Part shown: positions 5,101 through 22,028 of the stretch, one piece after another | Layout: each line of letters opens with the position of its first letter | How positions within the stretch are numbered: the first letter of the stretch is position 1 | Assembly (NCBI GenBank): GCA_949297305.1 | Contig: CASFSG010000016.1 | Location: 1 to 48,564, forward strand | DNA: 48,564 nt | Reading direction: 5' to 3' | Source: an uncultured bacterium | Lineage (GTDB): Bacteria > Bacillota_I > Bacilli_A > RFN20 > CAG-826 | Program-made: the position numbers and the translations under genes | Notes under the pieces: model-generated | What the model saw: only the letters and a program-made list of their open reading frames with translations | Told to the model about the DNA's origin: nothing | The model's database searches: none

Positions 5101-5231
5101 TTGTTCGCGGGGTTGGTGGCGATAATTCTTGGGGCGAAGATGTTCATGAACCTTATCGGCTATCCGCTAAGAAGGAGTATCGCTTTTCTTATTATCTTGA
5201 ACCAATTGATTTAAGTAAAATCAAGAATTAG
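2175..5231 (+). CDS. lacZ: Beta-galactosidase, glycoside hydrolase family 2
   Basis: This 1018-residue protein has the full LacZ layout and nearly the length of the E. coli enzyme (1024). It has an N-terminal jelly roll (about 50-215), an immunoglobulin-like domain, a TIM barrel (about 312-600) and the C-terminal small-chain domain ending in VGGDNSWGEDVHEP. Catalytic signatures are GINRHEWN, then the acid/base Glu446 in WSLGNESGSG, and the nucleophile Glu513 in ILCEYAHAMGNS. No signal peptide is present, so it should hydrolyse beta-galactosides in the cytoplasm after uptake. The RDD protein and the sugar kinase follow at +2 and -4 bases, which suggests one operon. No Shine-Dalgarno precedes the ATG. 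The enzyme class is secure; the natural substrate is not known. Confidence 0.95.
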   Translation: MDYKRILFDPEILEINLLKQHSVFDHYLSAGDAKKGIDKTIKNLNGKWRALYFQDYDAPFLVYGNVKTNINKLDTITVPIAKEIQEPRFGVPQYVNWQYPFDGYSSTPIDEAPDVPNPSVVYLRDINITKFDKNGKDYILRIGSFLSGLFLYVNGQFVGYSENCYLDSEFNITDYLLEGKNRLLIIVFKYSSSSIFLDMDAFRFSGIHRSVELITLNKKHIEDVEIKTHLDGRVDVKISGNLDGLTFLYQLDKVFVPVKITSEQKEITLQIDKTDLSYYSPNNPRCYRLFIYAYANNKLVDAVSELFGVKEVKIENNILLLNGRRFIFKGINRHEWNNYLGNHVTEDDIFYDLEYFKNHHINAVRTSHYPNTNFFYTCCDYLGVMIIDECALESHGTIGSYLNFDGKNSLPGSDVRYEKLVTTKIRNMYLRDKNHPSIILWSLGNESGSGLNFIKMKEVLKALNPEALTHYENAYFDHRYEDCSDVLSMMYPTPQKVKEILDAGVNKPFILCEYAHAMGNSMGNMKEYLDLIDLYPSFQGGFVWDYLDQSFRKNDSKIYFYGGDFNDRPNDLDFCGNGILPSRKNSDTAKGLALKELYSPIKINYLTKEKALKFTLLDNDLPRASISVSIDIYIDDKSSYHSLKRYSLNKEKCRTLDLIDVIPEFVPNHTYLLKTEVTLYKNSSNIVLAKMQKTFLLASKLNYTYGLNCPARIVYGKNNIGVIGKDYSYLFALSPVSFRMPGLYSIKIKNNEFLGMPIYPTIFRPHTSNDIGSWFFKRNQHLLTMSKYFTCSSNDITFNENEKYFTISYKYSLSNNADEFATIKYIVDKTNGVIKIDAYLSPLSSVEEIATFATTLAIKREKDISLEYFGYGPLDNYPDRLEGANIDNYQIIYFGPKSTLDEYSNDYLNPQEEGTKMNCHYLNYLFDNLEIGLRFSKCEQPFAYKFNHNSDFEIENAHHQFELGQPIDEYLTIMGFVRGVGGDNSWGEDVHEPYRLSAKKEYRFSYYLEPIDLSKIKN

Positions 5232-5233
5232 AA

Positions 5234-6400
5234 ATGAAAATTGCTGCTATAAATTATCCCTTACTTGATTACCCATCAAATTTCCGTCGCCTTGGAGCAG
5301 GAATCATTGATTTTATCATTTTATCATTGCTCACTTTTGCCGTCTTTTTAGGTTGCAGTTATCAAATTATCAAAGTTATTCCTGATTTTGTAAACAAAGA
5401 TCAAATTAGGGAAGAGGAGATGCGTGAGCTTTATCAAATATCAGAAGAGGCAGGTTTATTAACATTAAATGATGAAGGTTTGACTTATTCCCAAAGCCAA
5501 CTATTCGAATTTTATGCCTATAAACACATTGAATACGCTTATCAGTTAGATCCCGATTTTTTTATTAGTAGCGGTGTCTCTCAAATCGATAATCCCTATG
5601 ATTTTATTTCTATAAATAGTCCTTCTGATGATGATTTTTATCAATTTTATGTCAATTACGCTAACGAACATCAGCTAATCGATTATGGAAATAACACCCC
5701 ACGTGAATATTATTTAAATAACGTTTTGAAAGATTATGGTGAAATCTTTCGCTTAAGTGTAAGCGAAGGAATCGTGCCATTTAATAATGCTTTTGCCTTA
5801 AGTTTATATCGTGAAATTAATGGTAGTAGTGAAAGTAGTGAATATCTCACTAAATTGAGCAATTTTTATACTTTAACTTTCTCAAAAGCAGAAACTTTAC
5901 TTCGCAATGACCCTACTTATTTAACCCATTATCAAATCTATGAAACTAATTATCTAGGCTCGATGCAATACATGGCTTTTGGAATTTTAATTTCCTATTT
6001 TATTTCCTATTTGGCCGCTTATTTCTTTCCAACTTTCTTTACTAAATACGGTTTTACGCTTGGGCGTTTTATCTTTAAGCTAGTGATGTTTAAAAATGGT
6101 GAACCAGCAAAGAAATTACCTAAACTAGCCCATTTAAGTCTCAGCTTTATTTTGCAATATTTTTCTCTAGCTTTGCCATTTATCATCGCCTTTGGTACGA
6201 ACTTTTTAAGCGCGCCATTCTTTATAAGCGCTAACACTAGAGCCTTTAATAACCTACTTTTATGTTTAATAAGCGCAATTGCCTTCGTCATTATGTATTT
6301 TTCAGCATTTATTCGCCGCGATTCGCGCTCTTTAAATGATTTAATTTGCAAGATTGAAATAAAGAATGCGAAATATTATTTGGAGAAAAATAGTAAATGA
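5234..6400 (+). CDS. RDD-family membrane protein with a large extracellular insert
   Basis: RDD proteins are small membrane proteins, some implicated in ion or small-molecule transport; the function here is unknown. The hallmarks are visible: FRRLGAGIIDF leading into the first membrane segment (about residues 18-48), TLGRFIFKLVMFKNGEPA (about 275-292), and the final RRDSRSLNDLI. Unlike typical members of 150-200 residues, about 195 residues of polar sequence (50-245, rich in Tyr, Asn, Asp and Glu) lie between membrane segments 1 and 2 and are presumably exposed outside. Further membrane segments lie near 246-270, 300-325 and 335-360. It starts 2 bases after lacZ and overlaps the kinase gene by 4 bases, so it is translationally coupled to sugar metabolism genes. 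A 110-residue open frame on the other strand inside it is a shadow. Confidence 0.75.
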   Translation: MKIAAINYPLLDYPSNFRRLGAGIIDFIILSLLTFAVFLGCSYQIIKVIPDFVNKDQIREEEMRELYQISEEAGLLTLNDEGLTYSQSQLFEFYAYKHIEYAYQLDPDFFISSGVSQIDNPYDFISINSPSDDDFYQFYVNYANEHQLIDYGNNTPREYYLNNVLKDYGEIFRLSVSEGIVPFNNAFALSLYREINGSSESSEYLTKLSNFYTLTFSKAETLLRNDPTYLTHYQIYETNYLGSMQYMAFGILISYFISYLAAYFFPTFFTKYGFTLGRFIFKLVMFKNGEPAKKLPKLAHLSLSFILQYFSLALPFIIAFGTNFLSAPFFISANTRAFNNLLLCLISAIAFVIMYFSAFIRRDSRSLNDLICKIEIKNAKYYLEKNSK

Positions 6401-7284
6401 AAATCTTAGTCGTTGGAAGTTTGAATATCGATCATAATTATCGCGTGAATAATTTTTTAATTAATGGGCAAACAGTCGATGCCCTTTCTTATCATTTTAA
6501 TATTGGTGGCAAAGGTATCAATCAAGCCTACGCTTCTAGTCAATTAGTTGGAACAATGTTTTATGGTAAAGCGAATTATGAAGATATTAAGAATTTGCTT
6601 GAACAATTGCCCTCTAATGATAATTTTAATTTGCAATTAGTGCCCAGCAAATTAAATAGTGGTAACGCCGCAATAATTCTTAACCAAGAAGGTGAAAATC
6701 AAATCATTATTGCTCATGGAGCAAATTATGATTTTAATGATAGCGATTTAGCATATATTAAAACGATAATTAATCACTACGATGCCTTACTATTACAAGA
6801 AGAAATCAATGAAGATTTTCTTTTTAAATTAATCGATTTAGCAAATCGAGAACAAAAGATTATCTGCTTAAATCCCGCCCCTTATCATCCATACACCAAA
6901 GAATTATTAAATAAGGTGGATATCATTACCCCTAATGAAACTGAATTTATGGCCCTATCAGGATATCGCTATAGTGATACTCGTCTTTTAGATATCCAAA
7001 AACTACTTAATGATAAATTAAAATTAATTATTATTACTCTAGGTGAAAAAGGGGCAGTTGCAATTAATAAAGATGGTATCTACCACCAAGAAGCATTTAA
7101 AGTTAAAGTTATGGATACAGTTGGAGCTGGCGATACTTTTAATGGTTATTTTTTAGCAAATTATTTATTGACAAATGATTTAAAATTATCATTAAAACTG
7201 GCAACAAAAGCCTCTAGTGTTGCTATAACTAAAAACGGAACATTAGATGCTGTTCCTGAACCTTTTGAATTAAATTTTGATTAA
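6397..7284 (+). CDS. PfkB-family carbohydrate kinase (ribokinase-like)
   Basis: This 295-residue cytoplasmic kinase has the normal length for ribokinases. It opens with VVGSLNIDHNYRV, carries the first PfkB signature around residues 37-40 (NIGGKGINQAYA, sugar binding), and the second as DTVGAGDTFNGYF, with the catalytic base Asp246. NPAPY and TPNETE are further ribokinase-like motifs. It would phosphorylate ribose or another furanose/hexose with ATP. The gene overlaps the RDD gene by ATGA, and GGAGAAAA lies just upstream. A nucleoside-hydrolase domain is encoded about 9 kb downstream in the window, and its product would be ribose, which makes ribokinase activity attractive but unproven. A fructose- or nucleoside-type PfkB kinase is the alternative. 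Confidence 0.85.
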   Translation: MKILVVGSLNIDHNYRVNNFLINGQTVDALSYHFNIGGKGINQAYASSQLVGTMFYGKANYEDIKNLLEQLPSNDNFNLQLVPSKLNSGNAAIILNQEGENQIIIAHGANYDFNDSDLAYIKTIINHYDALLLQEEINEDFLFKLIDLANREQKIICLNPAPYHPYTKELLNKVDIITPNETEFMALSGYRYSDTRLLDIQKLLNDKLKLIIITLGEKGAVAINKDGIYHQEAFKVKVMDTVGAGDTFNGYFLANYLLTNDLKLSLKLATKASSVAITKNGTLDAVPEPFELNFD

Positions 7285-7473: not shown

Positions 7474-8907
7474 ATGAATAGTGTTATTACTTCTATATTA
7501 TTTCTAACTTTAACGAGTGCTAGTGCCTTTGCCCCACTAAAAATTAATGGTGAAGCAAATAAAATTGCTGTAAGCTCAATCGAAGCTAAATCAATTTTTG
7601 GTGGTTGGTGGGATAGTAGTGATGGCGATGCTAGTTGGGTAAATCAAGGTGTGATGGTTAATGTTCCTAAACAAACTTGGAATTATGAAGCACAATTGCC
7701 ATCTACTTTTGCTAGCCCATCTTTTAAAAGAAACTTCTCTTTAGTTGATAACGAAGCAATTTCCTTTAGAATTTCAGCAAATTTTTATGATGAAGATGGC
7801 AATGTTATAACTCAAAGCGTTAATGATGGTGGTGGAGCTTTTAATATTGCTGTTTATAATGCGGCAAACGAACAGAAAATATCCACTTTAAGAATCTGGG
7901 TGAATTCTCAGCCTAACGGCGCTGATCAAAATACCCAATTATGGGCAACTGTAAATGGTAATGATTGGCAATATAGTGTTAGTGGTGAACGCTGGATTAA
8001 AGGTACAGCTAAATTATCGAGTAGTTTTTACATTCAATTTGATAAAGAAAATCTCTTCTCTAGTTATGTGGGAGGTTCAGATAGTATTACTCCTTTAGCA
8101 ACCAACATTGATTATGTAAACGCTGTTAAAAATAATTTAGAAGGTGTCGATGAAGTATTCTTTAGATTTGGTGCTTCTAATGGTTTTACCGAAGATGCTT
8201 CACTAGTAATTTCTGAAATTAATGGCCAAGCATTAACAAATGTCGATGGTATTATTAATGATGTTAGCTCCCCTAAATTCTCTATGAGAAATAATTTACC
8301 TGCTACCTTACCAGTTAATGTACCAGTTGCCTTGAACATAGAAGCTTTTGATCTTTTAGATTCTAATTTAAAGTATCAAGTTAAATATGTTGAGAATGAA
8401 TTTAAAGACGGCCTAACCTTTACTCCGTTAGTTGTTGGTGATGATTCAGTCACTATTAAAGCGATTGATAGTAGCAATAATGAAACGACATACACTTATA
8501 ATTTCAAAGGCGTTAATGTGGCCGAATCATTTGCCGAGACATTTTTAAATACGACAAGCGTTTGTGATCCCTCTGGTGCTACTAACAATATCACTAGTGA
8601 GATGTGGCAAGAACTTGAAGATGCTTATAACGCTCTAAGTGTAGAAGAACGCGCGCGTTTATCAAACGCTCAGAATAATGAAAAAGGTACTAAATTAGAA
8701 AAAGCTGTTGCTCGCTATGAGTATATTGTTCATAAATATGGTTATAAAGATTTTATGGATCGAAATGTTGAGGTTTTAAGTATCAATAATCTAAATAATC
8801 ATGATGAAGTTTGGTTCTTACCTTTAATTATTTCTTTGTCAGTGATAACTCTTTTAGCAGTTGTTGTTTTAGTAGTTAAAACTCGTAAAAAAGATAAAAT
8901 CGAATAA
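7474..8907 (+). CDS. Secreted, membrane-anchored surface protein (lectin-like paralogue A)
   Basis: Unrecognised as a named family. The architecture is clear: an N-terminal signal peptide (ending near ASAFA), an ectodomain, one C-terminal membrane segment (about residues 445-468) and a short basic tail (KTRKKDKIE). No LPXTG motif is present, so it is anchored as a type I membrane protein. Residues 40-250 (from FGGWW through FYIQFDKENLFSSY to ISEINGQ) match the front of the 9130 protein almost domain for domain. An immunoglobulin-like module follows (about 260-350). Residues about 350-435 form a helical module with a CDPSG motif and the ending ARYEYIVHKYGYKDF, which the paralogue lacks. GAGGAAAGGGG precedes the ATG. 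The beta-rich, tryptophan-bearing ectodomain suggests carbohydrate binding, by context only. A strong terminator follows. Confidence 0.75.
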   Translation: MNSVITSILFLTLTSASAFAPLKINGEANKIAVSSIEAKSIFGGWWDSSDGDASWVNQGVMVNVPKQTWNYEAQLPSTFASPSFKRNFSLVDNEAISFRISANFYDEDGNVITQSVNDGGGAFNIAVYNAANEQKISTLRIWVNSQPNGADQNTQLWATVNGNDWQYSVSGERWIKGTAKLSSSFYIQFDKENLFSSYVGGSDSITPLATNIDYVNAVKNNLEGVDEVFFRFGASNGFTEDASLVISEINGQALTNVDGIINDVSSPKFSMRNNLPATLPVNVPVALNIEAFDLLDSNLKYQVKYVENEFKDGLTFTPLVVGDDSVTIKAIDSSNNETTYTYNFKGVNVAESFAETFLNTTSVCDPSGATNNITSEMWQELEDAYNALSVEERARLSNAQNNEKGTKLEKAVARYEYIVHKYGYKDFMDRNVEVLSINNLNNHDEVWFLPLIISLSVITLLAVVVLVVKTRKKDKIE

Positions 8908-8938: not shown

Positions 8939-8966
8939 AAAAAGCGTCAAAATTATGACGCTTTTT
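8939..8966 (+). terminator. Intrinsic (rho-independent) terminator
   Basis: AAAAAGCGTCA pairs perfectly with TGACGCTTTTT (11-base stem, 6-base loop AAATTA), and the stem ends in five T. It lies 31 bases after the surface protein stop and separates that gene from the operon at 9130. Confidence 0.88.
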
Positions 8967-9010
8967 GGCTATTATAATCTACATTAATCATAATGAGTTA
9001 GATTTAATCG

Positions 9011-9037
9011 TTAAAAATTAGAAAAAAAGCATATAAT
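9011..9037 (+). promoter_or_regulatory. Putative promoter of the glycan-utilisation operon
   Basis: A consensus -10 (TATAAT, 9032-9037) is preceded by TTAAAA (9011-9016, four matches to TTGACA) at a short 15-base spacing. It lies after the terminator and 92 bases before the ATG at 9130. This is the only gap before the long operon, so a promoter is expected here, but the -35 is weak and activator dependence is possible. Confidence 0.35.
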
Positions 9038-9129
9038 AAAACGGCTATAGTCAATAGTTAAAATAATCTAAAAGCAGAAAAAAATTAAAATATAAATGTA
9101 GAATGAAATAATTAACAAGGAGGACTTAT

Positions 9130-12084
9130 ATGTTTAAATTATTACTCATTCCAATCCTTAGTTTAACCATGATGAACACCTCACTGTTTGTTCGAGAGAG
9201 CGTTGATGTTTCTACCCTTAATGCGAATGAAATGTGGGGAGGTTGGGGACATAATACTTCCTTCACGGAAGATGGTCTTTTAGCTCTTTCACCTGGCCAT
9301 GACACGGTTGGTGATAACGCTTGGCAATATAAGACGGTATTACCAGGTGTTGGTGTTAGAACTAATAGCACGAATTATACTCAAAATTTTTCTTTGAATA
9401 ATAATGAAACAATCTCCTTTGAATTTTCTCTTAATATGTTTGACACTAGCGGCAATGATAATGTCATTGGGACGCATACCGATGCAAATAATCCAAACGA
9501 TATTTATTATTTAGATATTTATGTTCACGATCGAACTAATGATGCCCAATTAGCGTTACTTCGCATCTTTACCGAAAGTGGTTCAAAATTAAACGGCAAT
9601 CACTCATCTGCCTTATATGGAAGTGGTTGGGATCAACAATTATCATCATCTTATTGGTTGATGGGCGATGCCACTTTAGATAGTAGTTTCTATATTCAAT
9701 TTGATAAGGATAATCTATTTTCTAGTTATGCAGGAGGACAAGAAGGTATAGTTCCTTTATTTGATTTAAACAGTGATTTAGCTAAAACAATTAAAAATAA
9801 TTTAACTAATGTCGATGAAATTATTTTTAAAATTGCCCCTAATAATGGCTGGAATAAAGAAGCTTCTTTATATTTAAAATCAATTAATGGTCAAAAGCTA
9901 AATAGCGTAGATGGTGCAATTAGTGATAATGTTGCCCCAACCTTTAACGCTATATCATTACCATCCTCTTTAAGTATTAATAATCCTCAAACTTTAGAAA
10001 TTTCAGCGCACGATGTTTTAAGCGAAGTGCGTTATGAAATTGAATATAATGGCGTTAGAAACGAGGGTTTAACCTTCACTCCTAATAAAGTTGGTGCTGA
10101 TAGTGTTTTAGTTTATGCACTTGATAGCTCAAACAACGAAAGTTCTTATCTTTATAATTTTGAAGGTATTAATGTTATACCTGCTCCAACTTTTACTTCT
10201 TTGCCAACAATTAACGACGCAAAGTACAATTATTATGACAATATTGTGATAGATGCTCCATCAATTGAAGATGTTACTGGTGTGGCAGTAATTACTTTAA
10301 GTTATGGCTTAACTAGTGAAGAAACGAGAAATACTTTAAATATGGACATCAATCGACAATTCGTTATCAACATTGACAAAGAATTTGTTTTTGGTGAATA
10401 TGAATTCGTTTTTCTTGCTACTAATAGTGGTGGCACTTCCACTAGTGAACCGATTATTGTAAATATCTCGTTAGCAGATATTAATTTAGTCGATTTCATT
10501 GATGTCGGTGAGGCAGACATCATCCTAGATTATGCCGATTATGGCTTAAGAGCTAAGACTCGCACTAATTATCAATATTTAACTTTAGGTCGCGTCGATT
10601 TAGCTGATGAACAATCCCTCACCTTTGTCATCCCCTTTTCTTTAAGCGATGGTTCATCTAACAACATTCAATGTTTTGAATGGCAACTTGTGAATATTAA
10701 CGATCCGCAATACTACATTAGTTATCGCATGTGGACCGATCAAACAAGCACTAATTTTGATGCGCCTACCAACGTTTTAATTTCAACACCTAGTGGTATA
10801 AACGATATTACTAATTGTGGGTGGCGTAGTTATGGTCAAAACCCCGCTTATCGCGAAGTGACATTCGTTTTTGATCCAAATAGTTCGGCTTATTTCCATT
10901 CCTACGATAATAGCAATGTGTTAGTTCCAGCCCTTGGGGTGGATAATGCGATGGCTACATTCTTTAATGATGCTCCATCTTCTTATTATGAAGCGCGCGT
11001 TTGCGGTATGAACACTAGTTTAGGTGATGGACCATTATCGACAACCTTCGAATATGGTGTCGTTTCTTTCAGTGGTCAAAATTATAGGAACACTAACGGG
11101 GTAATTGATAACATCAATGATCCAATTGTCAAATTGAGCGGACCTAGTGAATGCGAAGTCAATCAAACAGTTAACATTAATTATTTCTATGATGATTACA
11201 CCGCTTTAGATGAAGATTTGGAAGTGAGTTTAAATGTTACTAATCCTCAAGGAGAAAAGATAGCACAAGATTTATCGCCTATTGGTTTATTGACTTTAAC
11301 TACGACAGAAATGGGAACTTATCTAGTTGAGCTAGATGTCAAAGGGGCAAGCGGTAATATTATACATCGCGAACTAAGCATTACTGTTAAACAAGAAAGG
11401 AATCCAATTGAAATCACGCTTAATGGTGAATATCCTACTTCTTTAAATGTTGGCGATTCGATTACGATTTTAGAAGCGACATATTCTGCTCATGCAAATA
11501 TGGATAAATCGACCATCACCATCATCGATATGAATAATGGGGAAATAAATGTTGATGTAGGTGATACTTTTACTTTTACTATCCCTGGGTTATATACGAT
11601 TCGCTATTTCGCTAGCGACGATGCCTTACCAGAAAACAACACTGCGACATTAGATATTCGTATTAATGTTTTAGATGTAACTAAACCGGTTGTAACGACC
11701 GATTTGTTAGATACTTATAATTTAGGTGAGGAAGTAACAATTACGATAATAGCGACCGATGAAACTGAACTTAGTTATCGCGTAATTATCATTTCTCCTT
11801 CTGGCACTCGCAAGGAATATACTAGCAATGTCATCACATTAACTTTCAATGAAATAGGAGAATATTCGATTCATATTACCGTTACCGATTTATACGATAA
11901 TGTCACACCGATTGATGACACATTTAATGTTATTGATAATCGTATTGCTCCAAGTGATCCTCCGTCAGCTAATGATGATCATACCGGTCTTATTATCGGC
12001 TTATCGGTTGCTGGTGGTGTCGTTCTTTTAAGTGGGGCGGCTGCATTAGTTATCGTTTTAATAAAGAAAAAGAAAGGGAGATAA
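9130..12084 (+). CDS. Large secreted, membrane-anchored multi-domain surface protein (paralogue B)
   Basis: This 984-residue protein is not recognised by name. A signal peptide (about residues 1-20) leads into a module (35-270) paralogous to the protein at 7474. It shares the GGW motif, SSFYIQFDKDNLFSSY and the SINGQ ending. Next come an immunoglobulin-like repeat (about 275-350), a further beta domain (355-450), a second lectin-sized region (about 455-675, with aromatic and Asn-rich segments), and three or more PKD/cadherin-like immunoglobulin repeats (680-940). The C-terminus has a linker, one membrane helix (about 955-977) and a KKKKGR tail. AAGGAGG lies 7 bases before the ATG. As the first gene of the operon, 4 bases before a glycosidase lipoprotein gene, it is probably a glycan-binding surface scaffold; that role is inferred from context. 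Confidence 0.75.
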   Translation: MFKLLLIPILSLTMMNTSLFVRESVDVSTLNANEMWGGWGHNTSFTEDGLLALSPGHDTVGDNAWQYKTVLPGVGVRTNSTNYTQNFSLNNNETISFEFSLNMFDTSGNDNVIGTHTDANNPNDIYYLDIYVHDRTNDAQLALLRIFTESGSKLNGNHSSALYGSGWDQQLSSSYWLMGDATLDSSFYIQFDKDNLFSSYAGGQEGIVPLFDLNSDLAKTIKNNLTNVDEIIFKIAPNNGWNKEASLYLKSINGQKLNSVDGAISDNVAPTFNAISLPSSLSINNPQTLEISAHDVLSEVRYEIEYNGVRNEGLTFTPNKVGADSVLVYALDSSNNESSYLYNFEGINVIPAPTFTSLPTINDAKYNYYDNIVIDAPSIEDVTGVAVITLSYGLTSEETRNTLNMDINRQFVINIDKEFVFGEYEFVFLATNSGGTSTSEPIIVNISLADINLVDFIDVGEADIILDYADYGLRAKTRTNYQYLTLGRVDLADEQSLTFVIPFSLSDGSSNNIQCFEWQLVNINDPQYYISYRMWTDQTSTNFDAPTNVLISTPSGINDITNCGWRSYGQNPAYREVTFVFDPNSSAYFHSYDNSNVLVPALGVDNAMATFFNDAPSSYYEARVCGMNTSLGDGPLSTTFEYGVVSFSGQNYRNTNGVIDNINDPIVKLSGPSECEVNQTVNINYFYDDYTALDEDLEVSLNVTNPQGEKIAQDLSPIGLLTLTTTEMGTYLVELDVKGASGNIIHRELSITVKQERNPIEITLNGEYPTSLNVGDSITILEATYSAHANMDKSTITIIDMNNGEINVDVGDTFTFTIPGLYTIRYFASDDALPENNTATLDIRINVLDVTKPVVTTDLLDTYNLGEEVTITIIATDETELSYRVIIISPSGTRKEYTSNVITLTFNEIGEYSIHITVTDLYDNVTPIDDTFNVIDNRIAPSDPPSANDDHTGLIIGLSVAGGVVLLSGAAALVIVLIKKKKGR

Positions 12085-12088
12085 TTAA

Positions 12089-13825
12089 ATGAAATATTTA
12101 CGTTTAATGATGTCTTTAGTTGGTTTAAGTATGGTTTTAGGTAGTTGTAATGATACTTGTCCATCTTTAAATTGTGACACTGGTGGTGAAGAAATTTCAG
12201 TTATTAAACCTGTCGAATATGATGATCCATCTAAGAGCGAAGCTCTTTATCATGGTGAAGATGTCTTAGTTAGCCAGGTTGCTACTAGTCAAGATGGTGA
12301 TACTTATATTGAATATAATGGCGCGCCCTTTATTTATAATGGCATCCAAATTCGCACCGATGCTTTTATGAACACTGATAAATGGAGCATCGATGAAATT
12401 GAAATTTTATTTCAAACTGCTAAAGAATGCGGCTTTGACTTAGTGCAAATTCCCCTCGAATGGGCGGATATTGAAATTGCTAAAGATGTTTATGACTTTT
12501 ACTATTTATTTAAAATTTTAGAATATGCACGAAAATATGATTTAAGAATGGAACTGCTATGGTTTGGAACAAATATGTGCGGTGACACTCATTCATATAC
12601 TGTGCCTGATTATATTTTAAAAGATGGTAAAACTTATCCAAAATTCGACGCTCCTCGCACGGGTGAGTTCTGGTCATATTATGGCTTGATGTGGTATTTA
12701 GATTTTGACGATCCAGATTTGCTCATGCGCGAAGGCTTAGCGATTGAAAAATGTTTAGATTTTATTTATGAATATGACTCGACGCATGGCGGACATAAAT
12801 CGGTCATTGGTATGCAAATTCATAATGAACCAGATTGTTTCCCCCGTTGGCGCATTTTCACCGCTAATAAAGAAGTTAAAGATCCATTAACAGGTCAAAC
12901 ATTCACAAAAGAAGATGCCTTTAAAAATGTTTTAAATGCTTTGGATTATTTAGGTAAAGTGGTAAAAAATCATCCTTATAAGATTATTACTCGCGTCAAT
13001 TTTGCGACGATGACGCGCGGTGATCAAGATGGTGAAAGCAGTGGGATTTATTTAAGTAATGGCAACTTAGCAACAATCCGTGATTTCGTTAAAGACACTT
13101 TTGCTTTAGAAGGTATCGATATAATTGGTGATGATTGCTATGATGCGGTTATTAATGATGTCAAAGGCATTCAATTGATGTTAAAGGAACAATTAGCGGG
13201 CAATTATCCTCATATTGCCGAAAATGATGGCAATTATGCGAATACCCCTAGTTTATTGCTTACTAGTCAAGTTGTTAAAGCCGGCTATATTGTCTATGAA
13301 CTTGCCACCTCTATTTTCTTTAAGGCAAACAACGCTTCTGATATCGATCAAGGTATTTATTCAGTTAACGCCGATAAGACATTAACTGGCAAAGCCCATC
13401 AGGCGAATATCACAAAAATGTTAAAAGCAATTAAAGCGTGCAAAAATCCTCTAGTGTTAGCAAAACAAGGAAATGTTTTAGGATTTAATTTAATGTCTAC
13501 TAATCCACAAAACAATTTTGCCCAAACCATCAATAGTGAAAATGCTTCAATTACCTTTACTACTTCCACTGGTGCTTTAGGTTATGTTTGTGATTATGAC
13601 AATTCTTTATATGCTTATTTCTTAGGCGATTGTTCCTTAGACATTTCCAATGTGACAGTCAGTGCGATTAGTGTTGGCGATTATAGTGGAGAAGAATTTA
13701 TCTCGACGACAACACTTAACGCTACTAGCAATATTAATATCACTGCAAATCAATTATATAAAATAGATTATCGTGATGTTAAGTCTCCTTTAATTAGTAA
13801 CGCTCTTGAAGCGATAGGAGGTTAA
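12089..13825 (+). CDS. Clan GH-A glycoside hydrolase-like lipoprotein (beta-galactosidase GH35/GH42-like), intact active site
   Basis: The signal peptide ends in the lipobox LGSC, so the 578-residue product should be lipid-anchored on the outer face. A TIM barrel spans roughly residues 70-430. Strand-end motifs fit clan GH-A: IQIRTDAF near the start, LVQIPLEWADIE, the Asn-Glu pair in MQIHNEPD with acid/base Glu247, and PHIAEND with the likely nucleophile Glu378. A beta-rich C-terminal domain follows. It resembles GH35/GH42-type exo-beta-galactosidases most, but the exact family and substrate are uncertain. GGGAG lies ahead of the ATG and the next paralogue begins 2 bases after the last base of its stop. 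Near the mature N-terminus is a Cys-rich stretch (SCNDTCPSLNC) shared in style with the next protein. Confidence 0.8.
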   Translation: MKYLRLMMSLVGLSMVLGSCNDTCPSLNCDTGGEEISVIKPVEYDDPSKSEALYHGEDVLVSQVATSQDGDTYIEYNGAPFIYNGIQIRTDAFMNTDKWSIDEIEILFQTAKECGFDLVQIPLEWADIEIAKDVYDFYYLFKILEYARKYDLRMELLWFGTNMCGDTHSYTVPDYILKDGKTYPKFDAPRTGEFWSYYGLMWYLDFDDPDLLMREGLAIEKCLDFIYEYDSTHGGHKSVIGMQIHNEPDCFPRWRIFTANKEVKDPLTGQTFTKEDAFKNVLNALDYLGKVVKNHPYKIITRVNFATMTRGDQDGESSGIYLSNGNLATIRDFVKDTFALEGIDIIGDDCYDAVINDVKGIQLMLKEQLAGNYPHIAENDGNYANTPSLLLTSQVVKAGYIVYELATSIFFKANNASDIDQGIYSVNADKTLTGKAHQANITKMLKAIKACKNPLVLAKQGNVLGFNLMSTNPQNNFAQTINSENASITFTTSTGALGYVCDYDNSLYAYFLGDCSLDISNVTVSAISVGDYSGEEFISTTTLNATSNINITANQLYKIDYRDVKSPLISNALEAIGG

Positions 13826-13826
13826 A

Positions 13827-15470
13827 ATGAAAAGAAATTTTTTACTATTGATTAGTGCTTTATTTTTAGTTGGTTGCAATGAAACATGTCCAACTTGTCC
13901 CCCGTTAGCGGGCGATATCGTAATAACTAAACAAGAAGTCTATAGTGCCCCTTATACATCAATAGCTGCTGAAAAATCATATATCGTTAATCAAAACAAT
14001 CAACCGCAGTTAATTTTATCTTCTTTAATTAGAACTGATTTATTAAGAAACGCTGATTTTTTAGAATATAGCGAAATGGAAGACTATTTTGCTATCGCTA
14101 AAGAGACGGGTTTTAATACCGTCGATGTCGTCATTACTTGGGCGGAAGTTGAACCGCATCGCAACGAATATGATTTTTCTAGTATTGAAGCTTATTTAAA
14201 CTACGCGTTAAAATACGACTTAAAATTAAATGTTATTTGGTATGGTTCGCTTGTTGATGGCGAATCGCATGGGGCTAATATTCCCCAATATATCCAATCT
14301 AATCCTGATGTTTATCCGGTGTTATTAGATTTATTTGATGGTGCTTATTATGGTCGTTTTCGCATTTTAGATTGGGACGATCCTGATTTAATCGCCCGCG
14401 AAAGCAATGCGATATATTCTTTATTTAATTACGTTTATGATTGGACGAGTGAAAAAGAATATAAAGATCCAGTCATCATGGCTCAAATTGGACAAGGAGT
14501 CGACCGTTTTCATAAGTGGCGCATCTCCCAATACACTGTTCCGGGTATAGAAACTGAATTAATGACATTAGAGGAAGCATTAGCGATGACTAATACCTAC
14601 TTAAATGAACTAGCAAAAGCCGTCAAATATTCGCGTTATCGCCCTTTAACAAGAGCGGAATTCTGTGAACAAACTGGAGTCGTTAATTATGTTAGAGAAG
14701 TTTATGATTTAGAATATATCGACATTGTTGCGACGACTTATCTTCACGATATTTCAGCGGCAAGAAATGGCATTCGTTCTTTTGCTGATGAATTTGATGG
14801 CATGCCAGTTATCAATGCGGAAAACTGGGCGAACGATATCAATCATCGCATGACTTTAGCTAATATTGCTTTAGGGGCAGTTGGTTATACTGCTTATCAA
14901 TTATCTAATCCGGTTTATTTCCCAGAAAATCCTAATGGTGCACTTTATGAAAGATACGATTCCTCTAAGGCAACTTTAGAAGAAAAGTTCATTCCAATTG
15001 CTAATCGTGTGACTTATAGTAAGTCGGTTATGAATGCTTTAAATAATTTATACGTTCCATCTAGCAAGACCATCCGATCTAATTTTGCGGCCTTGGGTTA
15101 TGATAACCGCCTTACTAGCGATAACGAAAGCCAAAAAGTTTATCTAAGTAGCGGAGTCATGCTCGAATTTAATAAGCCGACCTCCTCGATTGCTTTTGTT
15201 ATGCATGAAGGGGATTATCTATATGCTTATTCTTTAAATGATGCTTCCATAACCTTCTCTAATTGCGCATTATTAAATGCTCAAAAGGGTCAATTTGATG
15301 GATATCAAACCTTTAGTGGTGAAGCTGTTAGTCTAGAAAATAACATCACATTAAATTTAAAAGGAGGAGAAACTTATCGTCTGCGAGTCACAAGCGTGAA
15401 TAATTTACCAAGTGCGAGTGAACTTCGCGAATTAAATTATTCTTCTACTTTAGATGCGATTAGGTCATAG
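13827..15470 (+). CDS. Clan GH-A glycosidase-like lipoprotein, apparent acid/base loss
   Basis: This 547-residue lipoprotein (lipobox LVGC, Cys-rich start GCNETCPTC) is a divergent paralogue of the gene just upstream and follows the same layout: signal, TIM barrel and beta-rich tail. Matching motifs include IRTDLLRNAD, VVITWAEVEPHRNEYDF, LDWDDPDL and FHKW. The segment aligned to the acid/base site reads AQIGQGVDRFHKW, so the Asn-Glu pair becomes Gln223-Gly224. The nucleophile position is kept as Glu332 in INAENWAND. It may be a non-catalytic glycan-binding relative, or may use another proton donor. An AGGAGG inside the end of the upstream gene drives its start. The frame is intact over its full length, which argues against simple decay. 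Confidence 0.75.
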   Translation: MKRNFLLLISALFLVGCNETCPTCPPLAGDIVITKQEVYSAPYTSIAAEKSYIVNQNNQPQLILSSLIRTDLLRNADFLEYSEMEDYFAIAKETGFNTVDVVITWAEVEPHRNEYDFSSIEAYLNYALKYDLKLNVIWYGSLVDGESHGANIPQYIQSNPDVYPVLLDLFDGAYYGRFRILDWDDPDLIARESNAIYSLFNYVYDWTSEKEYKDPVIMAQIGQGVDRFHKWRISQYTVPGIETELMTLEEALAMTNTYLNELAKAVKYSRYRPLTRAEFCEQTGVVNYVREVYDLEYIDIVATTYLHDISAARNGIRSFADEFDGMPVINAENWANDINHRMTLANIALGAVGYTAYQLSNPVYFPENPNGALYERYDSSKATLEEKFIPIANRVTYSKSVMNALNNLYVPSSKTIRSNFAALGYDNRLTSDNESQKVYLSSGVMLEFNKPTSSIAFVMHEGDYLYAYSLNDASITFSNCALLNAQKGQFDGYQTFSGEAVSLENNITLNLKGGETYRLRVTSVNNLPSASELRELNYSSTLDAIRS

Positions 15471-15472
15471 TT

Positions 15473-17158
15473 ATGCTTAAAGCTCATGTCAATTCGATTA
15501 TTAAATATGAACATAAAGTAGGCGAATATGTTTTAAGACACCGCCATGAAGTGTATGAATTAGTTTATTATGCGCGTGGTGAAGGTCTATTAACGATTGA
15601 AGGAGATGGTTACTCTTATCAAGAAGGAACCATTACCATTACTAAAAAAGGTGTCATTCACGATGAAACCACGAAAGTATACACTAAATGTATTATCGCC
15701 CTATTCGAACTTGACGAAGAAATTGATGACGATTTTATTTTGGTGAATTTAAACGATAAAGATCTAGTTGAAGTAAATCATATTTTTCAGCAAATCTTTG
15801 CTGAAGAAACAGCGGATTTACCATACAAAAAGAAGTTGATTAACAATTACTTCAACGTTATATTGACTTATATTTTTCGTGAGAAATATGCCTATCAAGC
15901 CGAAGAAAAAAGCTATTTATCTTTAAATAAAAGAGCGAAAGCTTTCATCAAAGAAAATTATAAACAAAATATTGATTTTGTCCTATTAGCCAAATCATAT
16001 GGTTATTCCTACTCGCGTTTTCGCCATATCTTTAAAGAAGAAAATAATATTTCTTTAAATTCTTATTTGATTAATTATCGCCTCGATATGGCAAAAGTAT
16101 TTTTGCAAAATAAAAAATACTCCGTTAAAGAAGTTGGTTATCAAGTCGGCTTTAAATCACCAAGTTATTTTAATGCCTCTTTTATTAAAAAATTTCATTT
16201 AACTCCATTAGAATTCCGTCGTTCAATTAAAGATGTCGTTGGAGTAGGGGTCGCTAAACTAAAAGGTTTAGAGACGATTATCTTTGATACTGATTTAGGA
16301 TATGATTGCGATGATGTTGGAGCGCTTGCCCTCTTAAATATCTTTAAAAATCGCAATTTTATCGATTTAAAAGCGATTATTCATTCCGCCAAAAATAATC
16401 AAGAGGCCGACAAAGCCATCTATGCGATTAATAAATATTATGGTAATAAAGACATTCCAATTGGTTTATCTAATATTCCTAACCCCACTTTAAATCAATT
16501 AAAAATTAATCCTTATCAAACTGCGTTAATCGATGAATTTTATCATGGTGAAAATATTATTAAGCACGATTCTTTAGATTTGCTCATTAAAACTTTAATC
16601 AACGCAGAAGATCAATCTATCACCATCTTAATTACTGGCTTTTTAACTAATGTCGTCGCTTTAATGAAAACGATAAAAGTAAGCGATAATTTAAGCGGTA
16701 GCGATTTAATTAAAAAGAAAGTTTATCGCTTTGTCATCATGGGTGGAGCGTTTAAAACTAGTCAACCAGAATTTAATATTTTAAGTGATTTAAACGCGAG
16801 CATCTATTTCTTTCAACATGTTGAAACACCGACATATTTATTAGATTATGATACTGGTGTGACAATCTTTACTGGTCAAAACATGATTGATTCAGTAAGT
16901 AAAAATCCCATTGGAGTCTCTTATTCTATCTGCAACGGGAAAGCGCGAGAATCTTGGGATCCTCTAACAGCTTTATTTGCGATTAATCACGATGACCACT
17001 TATTTACTTTATCAAAAAGTGGAAATGTTGAAATCGATCAAGAAGGTTATTCGACCTTTCAAGAAGATAAAAATGGCTTTGTCCGTTTAATTTTATTAAG
17101 AGAAACACCACAGATGGTGGAAAAAATTATCAATAAATATTGGGAGGAAAACAAATGA
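15473..17158 (+). CDS. AraC-type regulator fused to an inosine-uridine nucleoside hydrolase domain
   Basis: One uninterrupted 561-residue frame holds three domains. Residues 1-130 are an AraC-type cupin sensor (HRHEVYELVYYARGEG). Residues about 150-258 are a double-helix-turn-helix AraC DNA-binding domain (LAKSYGYSYSRFRHIFKEE, then VKEVGYQVGFKSPSYFNASF). Residues about 265-561 are a nucleoside N-ribohydrolase. The hydrolase keeps the calcium/ribose motif (FDTDLGYDCDDVGALALL, Asp272, 274, 278, 280, 281), a central PEFNILSDLNAS and the final ARESWDPLTA with Asp496, so it looks catalytically competent. The start is 2 bases after the glycosidase stop and the end overlaps the binding-protein gene (ATGA). 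It probably regulates this operon. Whether it cleaves or merely senses a nucleoside or ribosyl compound cannot be told from sequence. Confidence 0.88.
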   Translation: MLKAHVNSIIKYEHKVGEYVLRHRHEVYELVYYARGEGLLTIEGDGYSYQEGTITITKKGVIHDETTKVYTKCIIALFELDEEIDDDFILVNLNDKDLVEVNHIFQQIFAEETADLPYKKKLINNYFNVILTYIFREKYAYQAEEKSYLSLNKRAKAFIKENYKQNIDFVLLAKSYGYSYSRFRHIFKEENNISLNSYLINYRLDMAKVFLQNKKYSVKEVGYQVGFKSPSYFNASFIKKFHLTPLEFRRSIKDVVGVGVAKLKGLETIIFDTDLGYDCDDVGALALLNIFKNRNFIDLKAIIHSAKNNQEADKAIYAINKYYGNKDIPIGLSNIPNPTLNQLKINPYQTALIDEFYHGENIIKHDSLDLLIKTLINAEDQSITILITGFLTNVVALMKTIKVSDNLSGSDLIKKKVYRFVIMGGAFKTSQPEFNILSDLNASIYFFQHVETPTYLLDYDTGVTIFTGQNMIDSVSKNPIGVSYSICNGKARESWDPLTALFAINHDDHLFTLSKSGNVEIDQEGYSTFQEDKNGFVRLILLRETPQMVEKIINKYWEENK

Positions 17159-18552
17159 AGAAAAGACATTTGCAAGCATCATTATTAACGATTATTAGTT
17201 TATTGCTTTTAACTAGTTGCGACAATAACTCTAAACGCGATTATGTCATCCTTTATATTTGGGGCGATAATAGTGAAATTAGTAGTTATGAAAGTATCGC
17301 AAGTAGTTATCGAGAGTTAACTGGCACAGAGGTCCGCGTCATTCCGGCAACGGATAGCTACTACAATAGTTTAAATATTCAACTAGGTTCTTCAAAAAGT
17401 GCGCCTGATATCTTTTTTACTGAAGGCGGAGAATTTCCTAGTCACATCGCTAGTAACAAATTATTAAATTTGACGCCTTATATAGAGTCTGGTGCCTTAG
17501 ATATTAAAACTGCCTCTAATGACGATGGACAAATTGAGTTATGGGATATCAACGATTCCTATCGTTATGATGGTGATAGTATTGGCCAAGGCGATTATTA
17601 CGCTTTAATTAAAGACTGGTCACCAGATTTTGTCTTATGGTATAACAAAGGTCTTTTCGATCGTTATAACGAAGTAAATAATTACAAAGCTGGCGATGAA
17701 GGGTTTTTAGAATACCCTAGTGAAACTATTCCGATGAGCTGGGATGAATTTTATGATTTATCGAATAAATTTGTCGGATTAGATTTAGGTGGTGGCGTTA
17801 AGGTTAATTATGGCACGATGCTCGACCGCGTTCCTTATAAACATTTGATGGAGTGGATTCAAATGACTGGTAGTAGCACTTGGACAAGCGATGGAATGGA
17901 ATTTAATTATACTGATCCAGGCGTTAAAAAGGCCTTTGAATTCTTTATCAATTTGCAAAACGGCGAGAAGAAATCTTCCCCAATTATTGGTCCAACATCA
18001 ATTGGTAGTGGCGATTTATTTAGAAATGGTCAATTGCCATTTTGCTTTTATGGTAACTGGGCTTATTCAAATTATAATTGGGATACAATTGGTTTTGATT
18101 TTGGCTTATGCCCACCTCCAGTTCCCGCTAAAGAGAGCGGTGAAGCTCTCACTATCGAAGATACATATGCGACTAGTTGCGGAATGGTTGGTTTAGCCGT
18201 TTATCGTTCTTCCCCAGTCGTTGATAAGGCGGTAGACTTTTTAAATTATTATATGACAGTTGGCCAAGAATTTATGGCTGAAAAATCTTTTAATATTCCC
18301 GGTAATAAACTCGTTGCTAGTAGCGATGCTTTTATGGAAAACGAAGATGCAAATATTGCTTATATCAATGAGTTTTTTATGAACATCGCGACAAATTATA
18401 CCCACGAGATTGTTTATAATAAATATGTTTCCCAAGAGGCATTTGAAAATATTATTGGAATTTATCTAATCCCATATATTGAAAATCCTTCTAGCTCTAA
18501 TTTAGATAAAGTTTTAGAAAATATTCATAATGATTTAATGCTCGAAATTTAA
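17155..18552 (+). CDS. Sugar ABC transporter substrate-binding lipoprotein (family 1)
   Basis: The 465-residue product has a signal peptide with lipobox LLTSC and a mature start typical of MalE-like binding proteins (YVILYIWGDNSEISSYESIA). Family features include APDIFFTEGGEF, WYNKGLFDRY, PMSWDEFYDL and LPFCFYGNWAY. It would capture an oligosaccharide outside the cell and deliver it to the two permeases encoded next. The ATG at 17155 is chosen because GGAGG lies directly upstream and it overlaps the previous stop as ATGA. An in-frame TTG at 17140 would put the ribosome site inside the coding sequence. Aromatic residues are abundant, consistent with sugar stacking. The ligand is unknown. Confidence 0.92.
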   Translation: MKKRHLQASLLTIISLLLLTSCDNNSKRDYVILYIWGDNSEISSYESIASSYRELTGTEVRVIPATDSYYNSLNIQLGSSKSAPDIFFTEGGEFPSHIASNKLLNLTPYIESGALDIKTASNDDGQIELWDINDSYRYDGDSIGQGDYYALIKDWSPDFVLWYNKGLFDRYNEVNNYKAGDEGFLEYPSETIPMSWDEFYDLSNKFVGLDLGGGVKVNYGTMLDRVPYKHLMEWIQMTGSSTWTSDGMEFNYTDPGVKKAFEFFINLQNGEKKSSPIIGPTSIGSGDLFRNGQLPFCFYGNWAYSNYNWDTIGFDFGLCPPPVPAKESGEALTIEDTYATSCGMVGLAVYRSSPVVDKAVDFLNYYMTVGQEFMAEKSFNIPGNKLVASSDAFMENEDANIAYINEFFMNIATNYTHEIVYNKYVSQEAFENIIGIYLIPYIENPSSSNLDKVLENIHNDLMLEI

Positions 18553-18553
18553 A

Positions 18554-19510
18554 ATGGAAAAAGTTGATATTCTCGATATAACTAAACAAAGGAAAAGTTT
18601 CAATCCTGAAAAACGAAAGACGATGCTCTTTTTCGCCTATATTTCCCCTTGGTTAATTGGTTTGACACTTTTTACTCTCGTCCCAATATGCATCTCTTTT
18701 GTTTTATCGTTTACTAATACGTCGATGATGAATTTTTCTAGCGATCCTTGGGAGTTTGTTGGCATTGATAATTATCTAAGAATATTTCGGGAAGATGCTA
18801 CCTTTTTAAGAGCTTTGCTCAATACTTTTATTTACGCCTTTGTTAAAGTCTTTTTGTTAGTAATTATCGCCTTATTAATCGCCTTATTGCTCAATAAAAA
18901 GATCGTAGGTCGCAAAGTCTTTCGCGTTTTGATTTATTTGCCGAGCATCATTCCTGTCGTCAGCGTTGCTCTTTTATGGAAAATGATTTTCACTGGCGGC
19001 GAATATAATATTGTCAATTACGTTTTATCTTTTTTTGGTTTTCCTGCCATTGATTTCTTTGGCGGAGAAGTCTCAAGTATGGCGACGATTATCTTCATTG
19101 GGATATGGAATGGTTTAGGTCCAACGATGTTAATCCTTTTAGCGGGTATTCAAGGCATCGATCACGATATCATTGAGGCGAGTGAACTCGATGGTGTCAA
19201 TGTCTTCCAAAAATTTTGGCACATCGTTTTACCTTCGTTATCTTCAACAATTTTCTTTGTTACTTTGACAAGCTTAATTTCTTCCTTACAAGTTTATGCG
19301 GAAGTTCAATTATTGACCGAAGGCGGACCTGGTATTGCGACGACAACTACTTCCTTATTAATTGTCCAAAACGCATTTAAATCGATTGGTTCGAAGACGC
19401 TTGGTTACGCTAGTGCACAATCATGGATTGTCTTTGTCATCACTTTAGCTCTCACCTTAATCTTTATGGCGATGAGCAATCATAAAGATAAAGTTGATAA
19501 AAGGAGATAG
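18554..19510 (+). CDS. Sugar ABC transporter permease (MalF/UgpA type)
   Basis: This is an integral membrane subunit of a carbohydrate importer, 318 residues, with six predicted membrane segments after a charged N-terminus (first near FFAYISPWLIGLTLFTLVP). The cytoplasmic EAA loop that docks the ATPase is visible as EASELDGVNVFQKFWHIVLP (about residues 211-230). LLTEGGPGIATTT is typical for the MalF-type partner. It begins one base after the binding-protein stop with only a weak ribosome site, so translation is probably coupled. It pairs with the permease encoded from 19513. Confidence 0.93.
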   Translation: MEKVDILDITKQRKSFNPEKRKTMLFFAYISPWLIGLTLFTLVPICISFVLSFTNTSMMNFSSDPWEFVGIDNYLRIFREDATFLRALLNTFIYAFVKVFLLVIIALLIALLLNKKIVGRKVFRVLIYLPSIIPVVSVALLWKMIFTGGEYNIVNYVLSFFGFPAIDFFGGEVSSMATIIFIGIWNGLGPTMLILLAGIQGIDHDIIEASELDGVNVFQKFWHIVLPSLSSTIFFVTLTSLISSLQVYAEVQLLTEGGPGIATTTTSLLIVQNAFKSIGSKTLGYASAQSWIVFVITLALTLIFMAMSNHKDKVDKRR

Positions 19511-19512
19511 AT

Positions 19513-20403
19513 ATGAACGATAATTATCTCGATTTAGCCCTTTATAAACGATATTCTCCTTCTTTTAAGAAAGTTAAACATATCGTCGTTTATATTGTTT
19601 TATTTGTTTTATGTCTAGTGATTAGTCTAGCGTTCGCTTTCCCTTTTATTTACATGGTTTTGATGTCTTTTATGAAAGATAGCAATTCTATTTTCTTATA
19701 TCCTCCCGTTCTTTATAGTGGGGAGTTAAGATTTCAAAATTATGTTGAAGCGTGGCAATATATTGATTTAGGTCAAAAGTTATTAAATACCATCATCATG
19801 GTCATTGCGACGATGGGAATTGGTATTGTCGCTTCCATTTTAATTGCTTATGGTTTTTCTAGATTCCGCAATCGCTGGTCGAATTTATTTTTCAATATTT
19901 TACTTTCAACGATGATGATACCTTGGGTCATCACGATGATTCCTGCCTATGTTGAATATGAGTTTTTCGGCTGGATAGGCACGCGCTTGCCCCTAATTAT
20001 TCCTTGGATTGGCGGTAGTGCTTTCAATGTCTTCATGTTGCGTTCTTTTATGGATGATATTCCTCTTGAACTCGACGAAGCCGCTAAGATGGATGGTAGC
20101 TCTTCTTTTCGCATCTTATGGCAAGTTATTTTGCCGCAACTTAAACCATGTCTAGCGACGCTTTTTGTCTTTAGTTTTATCAATGCTTGGTCAGATTATG
20201 TTGGGCCGAGCATCTATCTACAATCATCGCCGGAATTATTTACCCTTTCATTAGGGATGCAACAATTCTTCTCTTCGACTGGTCGTGTCGATTGGAATTT
20301 AGTGATGGCTGCATCGGTCATTTTCTCCGTTCCGATGGTCATCGTCATTTCTTTAGCCCAAAACGCCTTTGTTAGAGGTATCGTTCGTAGTGGCATCAAA
20401 TAG
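19513..20403 (+). CDS. Sugar ABC transporter permease (MalG/UgpE type)
   Basis: The second membrane subunit of the importer has 296 residues and six membrane segments. The EAA loop reads [20 protein letters not shown] (about residues 193-212), the MalG-type version. [12 protein letters not shown] near residues 38-49 and [15 protein letters not shown] are further family landmarks. AAAAGGAGA precedes the ATG, 2 bases after the previous stop. The ATPase gene starts 11 bases beyond its own stop behind GGGGAGG. Confidence 0.93.
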
Positions 20404-20414
20404 GGGAGGTCAAA

Positions 20415-22028
20415 ATGAAATTTCAAGAATGGTGTAAGAAAATTTTTAAAATTAAATCAGAAGAAGAAAAAATCCTTTTGAAGGAGCGCAATCGCGTTTA
20501 TCTCAACATGAAAAACGCCCAGAAAGATAATTTATCAGCCAAAAAAGACTTGCCTAGTGATGAGGCTTACGTTTCTTTAAGACATATCAATAAAATTTAT
20601 GAAAATCGCGTGCAGGCGGTTTACGATTTTAACTTGGATATTAAGAAAAATGAATTCATCGTCTTTGTCGGTCCTAGTGGCTGTGGTAAATCGACAACTT
20701 TAAGAATGATTGCTGGTTTAGAAAGCATTACTTATGGCGATTTATTTATCGACAAAGTTTTAGCGAATAATCTAGAGCCAAAAGAGAGAGATATTGCAAT
20801 GGTTTTCCAAAGTTACGCTCTTTATCCCCATATGACCGTTTATGATAATTTAGCTTTCTCTTTAAAAATTAAGAAATTTAAAACTTTAATTACTAATAAA
20901 GATGGTTCACCTAAAATTGCTATCGATGAAAAGATTGTCAAATATTTAAAAAAGCGCATCAAAAATCTCCCTAAAGAAAATTTAAATGAAGAAGAAAAAG
21001 CTAATCTTTTAGGGTCTTTAAAAGAATCTTTATCTTATTATGAAAATACTCCTATAGAGATTTATCGCCTCCGTCATCAAAAACGCGATGCAATTGATAT
21101 GCGGGTAAAAGAAGTTGCAAAAATCTTAGAACTTACTCCTTATTTATCTAGAAAGCCTAACGCCCTAAGTGGTGGGCAAAGACAAAGGGTAGCCCTAGGA
21201 AGAGCAATTGTTCGTAACGCGAAGCTTTTCTTAATGGATGAACCTCTATCTAATTTAGATGCGAAACTACGGGTTCAAATGCGTTCAGAGATTGTTAAAT
21301 TGCATCGTTCAATTAATGCGACAACTATCTATGTTACGCACGATCAAACCGAAGCGATGACGATGGCCGATCGAATCGTAGTAATGAAAGATGGTTATAT
21401 TCAACAAATTGGTACCCCAAAAGAAATCTATACAAAACCCGCGAATTTATTTGTAGCAATCTTTATTGGTTCGCCAGCTATGAATTTAATCGATGTGAAA
21501 TATCATAAGCAACGCTTATCTATCACTGACGAGTATTCTTTAGACTTAAACTACAATGTTGAAAAGGTCATTAAAGAATATTATCAAGGGGAAATTGCAT
21601 CAATTAAGTCGCAAAACGAAGATATTTTAAAAGAAATTGCTGAGATTAATGCGGAAGATAAACGTTTCCAAATGCGCTTAAAATATCTTCAAACTTTAAA
21701 AGAAAAAAATTGCAATTTATTAAACAAATATCAAGAGGCTTTAACTAACCCTTCTGATCAAATCGTTTTAGGAATAAGGCCTGAAGATCTTTATCACCAA
21801 GAATATATCGAAGCGAAAGCTGAAGTTTCTAAACCCCTTGCTATAAGTATTGATGTCGCTGAACTTGTTGGTAATGAATACTATATCCATTTTCAATATG
21901 GCGGGAAGGAAATGATTGCTAAAGTGCCTTCGACAATCGATTTAAAAGAGGGCGATCAATTAAAGATTGTAATGAATAAAAATCGCTTGCATTTGTTTGA
22001 TAAAATTTCTTCAAAAAGAATTATCTAA
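20415..22028 (+). CDS. Sugar ABC transporter ATPase (MsmX/UgpC type) with three extra segments
   Basis: The ATP-hydrolysing subunit of the importer, cytoplasmic at the membrane. Walker A is GPSGCGKST (86-94), the Q-loop Gln132 lies in [15 protein letters not shown], the signature LSGGQRQ is at 251-257, then [12 protein letters not shown] and the H-loop in [10 protein letters not shown]. Family members have about 365 residues; this one has 537. The surplus is a charged N-terminal extension (1-50), an insertion of about 70 residues in the helical subdomain (about 156-225, Lys/Glu-rich), and a predicted coiled coil of about 65 residues inside the C-terminal TOBE region (about 378-445). The catalytic core is intact. 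It is the last gene of the operon. The additions could be regulatory or specific to its permeases; that is inference. Confidence 0.93.

Follow-up and report, generated by a model that had tools for sequence, protein, structure and literature searches.

Why should a putative regulator of sugar uptake carry an entire hydrolase behind its DNA-binding domain? The question is raised by one gene in the window (the whole stretch of 48,564 nucleotides analyzed here, from a gut bacterium). A single ATG-started frame at 15473..17158 on the forward strand encodes 561 amino acids without an internal stop, joining an AraC-type regulator to a nucleoside hydrolase (NH). The N-terminal cupin (residues 1-95; 15473..15757) is matched by the Pfam family AraC_binding at residues 18-64 (24.0 bits against a cut-off of 21.1) and is modelled as beta strands from residue 4 to 92. 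The helix-turn-helix (HTH; residues 172-250; 15986..16222) matches HTH_18 along its full extent (64.6 bits against 33.6, E 1e-17) and HTH_AraC at 213-250 (39.4 bits against 26.6). With HTH and cupin both above curated cut-offs, the protein fits the AraC/XylS regulators. A linker (residues 253-266; 16229..16270) then leads to the NH domain (residues 267-561; 16271..17155), matched by IU_nuc_hydro (PF01156) at 269-525 (60.2 bits against 34.2, E 3.3e-16). The initial annotation was thus right to read cupin, AraC HTH and hydrolase in one frame, and the frame is open through residues 255-265, where it had allowed for a stop.

Is the hydrolase half equipped to be an enzyme? Its residues 272-281 (16286..16315) read DTDLGYDCDD, an aspartate cluster of the form DxDxxxxxDD. 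An N-terminal DxDxxxDD (or DxDxxxxxDD) motif is the calcium/ribose motif of nucleoside hydrolases, and those of group II have a tryptophan before the last aspartate (PMC10526354). The latter trait is found in RESWDP (residues 492-497; 16946..16963), where the tryptophan of SWD (494-496) precedes the C-terminal aspartate and takes the place of the active-site histidine. Between these lies PEFN (432-435), whose EFN (433-435; 16769..16777) aligns with the AEFN of known nucleoside hydrolases. Every one of these elements is in place, including the aspartate cluster and Ser-Trp-Asp that had been claimed as intact at the outset. At the region of the classical N39, the asparagine after the first strands, the protein reads HSAKNN, so its contacts with the sugar may differ from those of the classical enzymes. 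A single-sequence search of the PDB with the NH domain gave no match at E 0.001; a profile search did match.

The fold tells the same story. In an AlphaFold prediction built from fused relatives, cupin, HTH bundle and NH fold can all be seen. The mean pLDDT is 81.7, falling below 50 at residues 253-264, and a pTM of 0.54 leaves the arrangement of the domains uncertain. Compared with solved structures by Foldseek, the AraC half matches the AraC-type regulators ToxT and Rns, and the NH half matches the nucleoside hydrolases 2mas, 8ctm and 1yoe (TM-score normalized to the target 0.62-0.75, about 0.7). Both halves are predicted to fold as the initial annotation would have them, as regulator and hydrolase with a flexible linker between. 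By its profile match, N-terminal calcium/ribose motif and predicted fold, the NH half fits PF01156. One polypeptide would then unite an enzyme domain, its motifs apparently intact, with a DNA-binding domain, as a trigger enzyme does.

The surroundings of the gene are those of a glycan-uptake operon. The fusion gene sits, as had been noticed at first, in the middle of a tight run on the forward strand (9130-22028), beginning 2 bases past the preceding gene and overlapping the start of the next by 4 bases (ATGA; 17155 against 17158). The first gene of the run encodes a large surface protein, secreted and anchored in the membrane, that matches PKD weakly (9130..12084); next come a lipoprotein with a DUF4978/GH35-like domain (12089..13825) and a second GH35-like lipoprotein (13827..15470). 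Beyond the fusion come an extracellular solute-binding protein (17155..18552), two ABC permeases (18554..20403, as 18554-19510 and 19513-20403) and an ABC ATPase of the MalK/UgpC type (20415..22028). The ATPase, at 537 amino acids, has long insertions that break its family match into pieces, and homologues of similar length occur in L024 and L025. The first protein of the run shares features of its N-terminal half with the product of 7474-8907, likewise secreted, membrane-anchored and of no clear Pfam family (FGGWWDSS and WGGWGHNTS; KNNL..VDE). A region read by eye as the putative promoter/operator (8967..9129, forward strand) follows a hairpin at 8941-8964; a promoter scan of this candidate region found promoter-like matches no commoner than in shuffled sequence and identified no operator.

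Is the fusion an oddity of one genome? That idea had to be given up. Another, independent genome from the genus (G002; L003/L063) has the same fused frame at 98% identity, and five more genomes, from Bacilli and Clostridia, carry forward fusions at 25-36% identity. One of these five, in the same order as the window's genome (G039), stands at about 35% as far as its contig reaches. When 84,980 species genomes were scanned for the pattern DTDLGxD[CV]D and the 80 loci kept were tested by HMM, fusions came to light also in L068, L072, L074 and L076 (metagenome-assembled genomes labelled Clostridia or Firmicutes). Their alignment with the window protein extends from the cupin, across the linker, to where the NH domain ends. 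The fusion is rare all the same. Among 395 genomes drawn from the window's class, its own genome is the sole carrier; among 391 drawn from the class of the L068 genome, that genome alone has it; and in the window's order three forward and two reverse-order fusions occur among 279 genomes. Plasmid records gave separate NH or AraC matches and no fusion.

Some candidates from the search were set aside. A frame of 1304 amino acids in L072 is a GC-rich read-through of the frame upstream, the homologous part being about 585 amino acids, and the NH-bearing frames of L174 (597 amino acids), L153 (543) and L175 (472) are not AraC fusions. That of L174 (4561-6351, reverse strand) joins the N-terminal part of an FAD oxidoreductase to a C-terminal NH part at RFDD-AGAL; this may reflect another type of fusion, or else a deletion or a join made in assembly.

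The operon is nearly always kept along with the fusion. Relatives of the DUF4978 lipoprotein (12089-13825) adjoin AraC-NH genes in L022, L068, L072, L074 and L076, and permease homologues follow them in L067, L068, L072, L074 and L076. The full order of DUF4978/GH35-like lipoproteins, AraC-NH, binding protein and two permeases is found in the window and in L074; L022 has its first half, up to the end of the contig, and in L068, L072 and L076 the DUF4978 gene stands at the end of the run. A divergent gene for an FAD-dependent oxidoreductase (PF12831) adjoins the Clostridia operons (L068:3015-4772, L072, L076). All six full-length forward fusions have the catalytic motifs intact, as does the truncated one of G039 in the part that it covers. 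Among the intact Clostridia fusions, identity is 53-64% in the NH half against 45-49% in the AraC half; this stronger conservation of NH is the pattern expected if activity is under selection. Comparison of the window's genome with its near-identical relative gave 9 synonymous and 9 non-synonymous changes, too few for inference from dN/dS.

I propose that the protein is a riboside-responsive one-component AraC regulator, in which a catalytically competent NH domain doubles as the sensor. Judged from sequence, this trigger enzyme has a somewhat better than even chance of being the right account. Its most serious competitor holds that a stop was lost between neighboring genes of an operon, so that the NH domain is an enzyme and nothing else, the cupin does the sensing, and equal amounts of the two activities are the only gain. 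The initial annotation had left room for relatives in which the domains are always apart; what is found is fusion in several genomes and separation in some. In G055 the two domains are tandem genes with a gap of 4 bases, and in L091/G626 they lie 65 bases apart, just what a lost stop would start from; such pairs, seemingly working unfused, count against a trigger enzyme. (In L069, L075, L082 and L083 the AraC gene adjoins the NH gene divergently.) The flexible linker and the intact catalytic residues also suit a mere joining of neighbors. In the NH tree all forward fusions fall in one clade (SH-aLRT 98, 14 rows), and in the AraC tree the AraC partners, fused or tandem, do so too (support 97, 12 rows). 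Such a pattern would arise if an old AraC-NH partnership had been fused once and then split, or fused several times.

Then there are the fusions in reverse order, NH-cupin-AraC, in two genomes of the window genome's family (G029 and G141; 584 and 597 amino acids; L057:8109-9863, forward strand, and L058:12144-13937, reverse strand). They head ABC-uptake operons similar to those of the forward fusions, and they derive from NH and AraC clades other than those of the forward fusions. By these trees, NH-cupin-AraC is a fusion event independent of the forward one, and the pairing of AraC with NH arose at least twice. On the same two contigs, a polysaccharide deacetylase gene precedes a standalone NH gene of the forward type. 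A chance loss of a stop does not sit well with a reversed fusion from a different NH lineage, nor with the observation that no operon partner other than AraC is found fused to NH at these loci, save for the one doubtful oxidoreductase frame.

A further argument comes from a second fusion in the genome that holds the L068 fusion (L173:4925-6514, reverse strand). Its frame is open, without a stop, and adjoins DUF4978 and ABC permease genes. In its NH part D278 is deleted, D280 and D281 are replaced by S and A, EFN is gone and SWD has become VMD. The AraC half is 47-50% identical to those of the intact fusions, the NH half 26-28%. Pfam does not recognize NH in this half, while BLASTP (E 9e-20) and profile comparison (probability 96%) show it homologous to the intact ones, and its predicted model matches NH folds in the PDB, the nearest being 4p5f (XopQ/XOO4466). 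A domain kept after catalysis is lost presumably serves the regulator in some way beyond hydrolysis, which an NH domain that is an enzyme only would not do. This paralogue is the best single argument and suggests a non-hydrolytic role, though it is a single example that relaxed selection might also explain. Reversed fusion and dead paralogue together weaken the lost-stop account, which I regard as unlikely, at roughly one chance in four.

Might the window's own NH domain likewise bind a riboside or ribosyl sugar and never hydrolyze it? The paralogue shows that such a state exists, and in the NH tree the branch of the window protein, at 0.95, is fairly long. Yet the window protein and its 98% relative keep every residue of the calcium/ribose motif, and the window genome yielded no second NH gene that could do the cleaving, so pure sensing is improbable there. 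That the fusion is an assembly join or a missed stop between two genes merits almost no credence: nothing was found in its favor beyond the draft state of the genome (93 contigs), and the 98% copy in an independent genome rules out local assembly or sequencing error, with the homologous fusions of five further genomes to the same effect.

If the protein is a trigger enzyme, what might it cleave? The window has a ribokinase-like PfkB kinase (6397..7284, forward strand), matched by TIGR02152 with 215 bits, under the cut-off of 299.65. It belongs to a tight same-strand group a short way ahead of the operon (2175-7284), with a LacZ-type beta-galactosidase and an RDD-like membrane protein. It is also the sole PfkB gene found in the window's genome, as the fusion is the sole NH gene, and both lie within the window. 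The operon of G055 ends with a ribokinase-type gene, and others lie near the NH gene in G030 and L066; the G055 and L066 genes score above the curated cut-off for ribokinase. A PfkB gene is within 10 kb of NH in 4 of 13 genomes where 0.6 would be expected (P about 0.0025, post hoc), a proximity seen in some lineages only. Nearby ribokinases, and the lone NH and PfkB genes of the window, favor the release of ribose. The glycan-uptake setting would favor a ribosyl oligosaccharide as substrate over a nucleoside, and as a candidate ligand a free nucleoside is no better supported than a ribosyl sugar derived from an oligosaccharide that the cell takes up.

The trigger-enzyme model would work as follows. 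Glycans would be trimmed outside the cell by the GH35-like lipoproteins, and the ABC transporter would take in a ribosyl-containing product. The NH domain would bind this product by means of Ca2+ and the aspartate cluster and split off ribose, to be phosphorylated by the nearby ribokinase. A ligand in the NH pocket, perhaps with a contribution from the cupin, would alter the AraC dimer and hence how the protein's own operon is transcribed, starting at a promoter before 9130 and probably past the hairpin. The initial annotation's idea of a trigger enzyme draws strength from fusion recurring in both orders, from the dead paralogue, from the conserved operon and from the ribokinase neighbors; catalysis, the identity of the ligand, the DNA site and the coupling I infer. 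A broader version, to which I would give a little less than even odds, is that on at least two occasions AraC regulators of glycan-uptake operons took on NH domains as their sensors, that the intact forms cleave a ribosyl-sugar inducer and so reset the switch, and that at least one lineage became a pure pseudo-enzyme sensor.

There are few examples of a metabolic enzyme joined to a DNA-binding domain, and they are difficult to trace. In these related genomes, apparently active, split, reversed and catalysis-dead forms coexist, making the step from enzyme to sensor directly testable. If the model is true, L173 and L068 catch the transition from enzyme to receptor within one genome. It would also suggest that ribosyl residues are an inducing signal for a DUF4978/GH35-like glycan-uptake operon.

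How does the protein compare with known systems? AraC, RhaS and MelR, the one-component sugar regulators of the AraC/XylS family, likewise combine an N-terminal cupin with two HTH motifs at the C-terminus and serve sugar-uptake operons, but they have no domain after the HTH and sense by the cupin alone, whereas the window protein has a full enzyme domain there. With the inosine-uridine and IAG hydrolases (RihA/B/C, Crithidia IU-NH, T. vivax IAG-NH) the NH domain shares fold, aspartate cluster, EFN and final aspartate. It differs from known PF01156 members as a divergent subfamily (60 bits) with DxDxxxxxDD spacing, as well as in its glycan-uptake neighborhood and its fusion to a regulator. PutA and BirA are trigger enzymes (PMC6978683). 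Like the window protein, they unite enzyme and DNA-binding part in one polypeptide; they differ in folds and substrates, and the activity of the window protein is a prediction.

Ada-type fusions of AraC with an enzyme, and fusions with a solute-binding protein such as Btr, also add a non-classical functional domain to an AraC HTH, but the partner domains and signals are others. No fusion of either type is known to have a nucleoside hydrolase as partner. The Btr family was also returned by the family search (NF049932), and among the family names returned for window proteins there was no AraC-NH architecture. XopQ/XOO4466 (PDB 4p5f, with ADP-ribose) indicates that an NH fold can bind riboside ligands, though it is an injected bacterial effector and not a regulator, and the resemblance is one of fold only. 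In the literature searched, covered in part by titles and abstracts, there was no description of an AraC-NH fusion, nor any paper on DUF4978. AraC regulators with extra domains are already known, and so are trigger enzymes; the combination of AraC with NH appears to be new.
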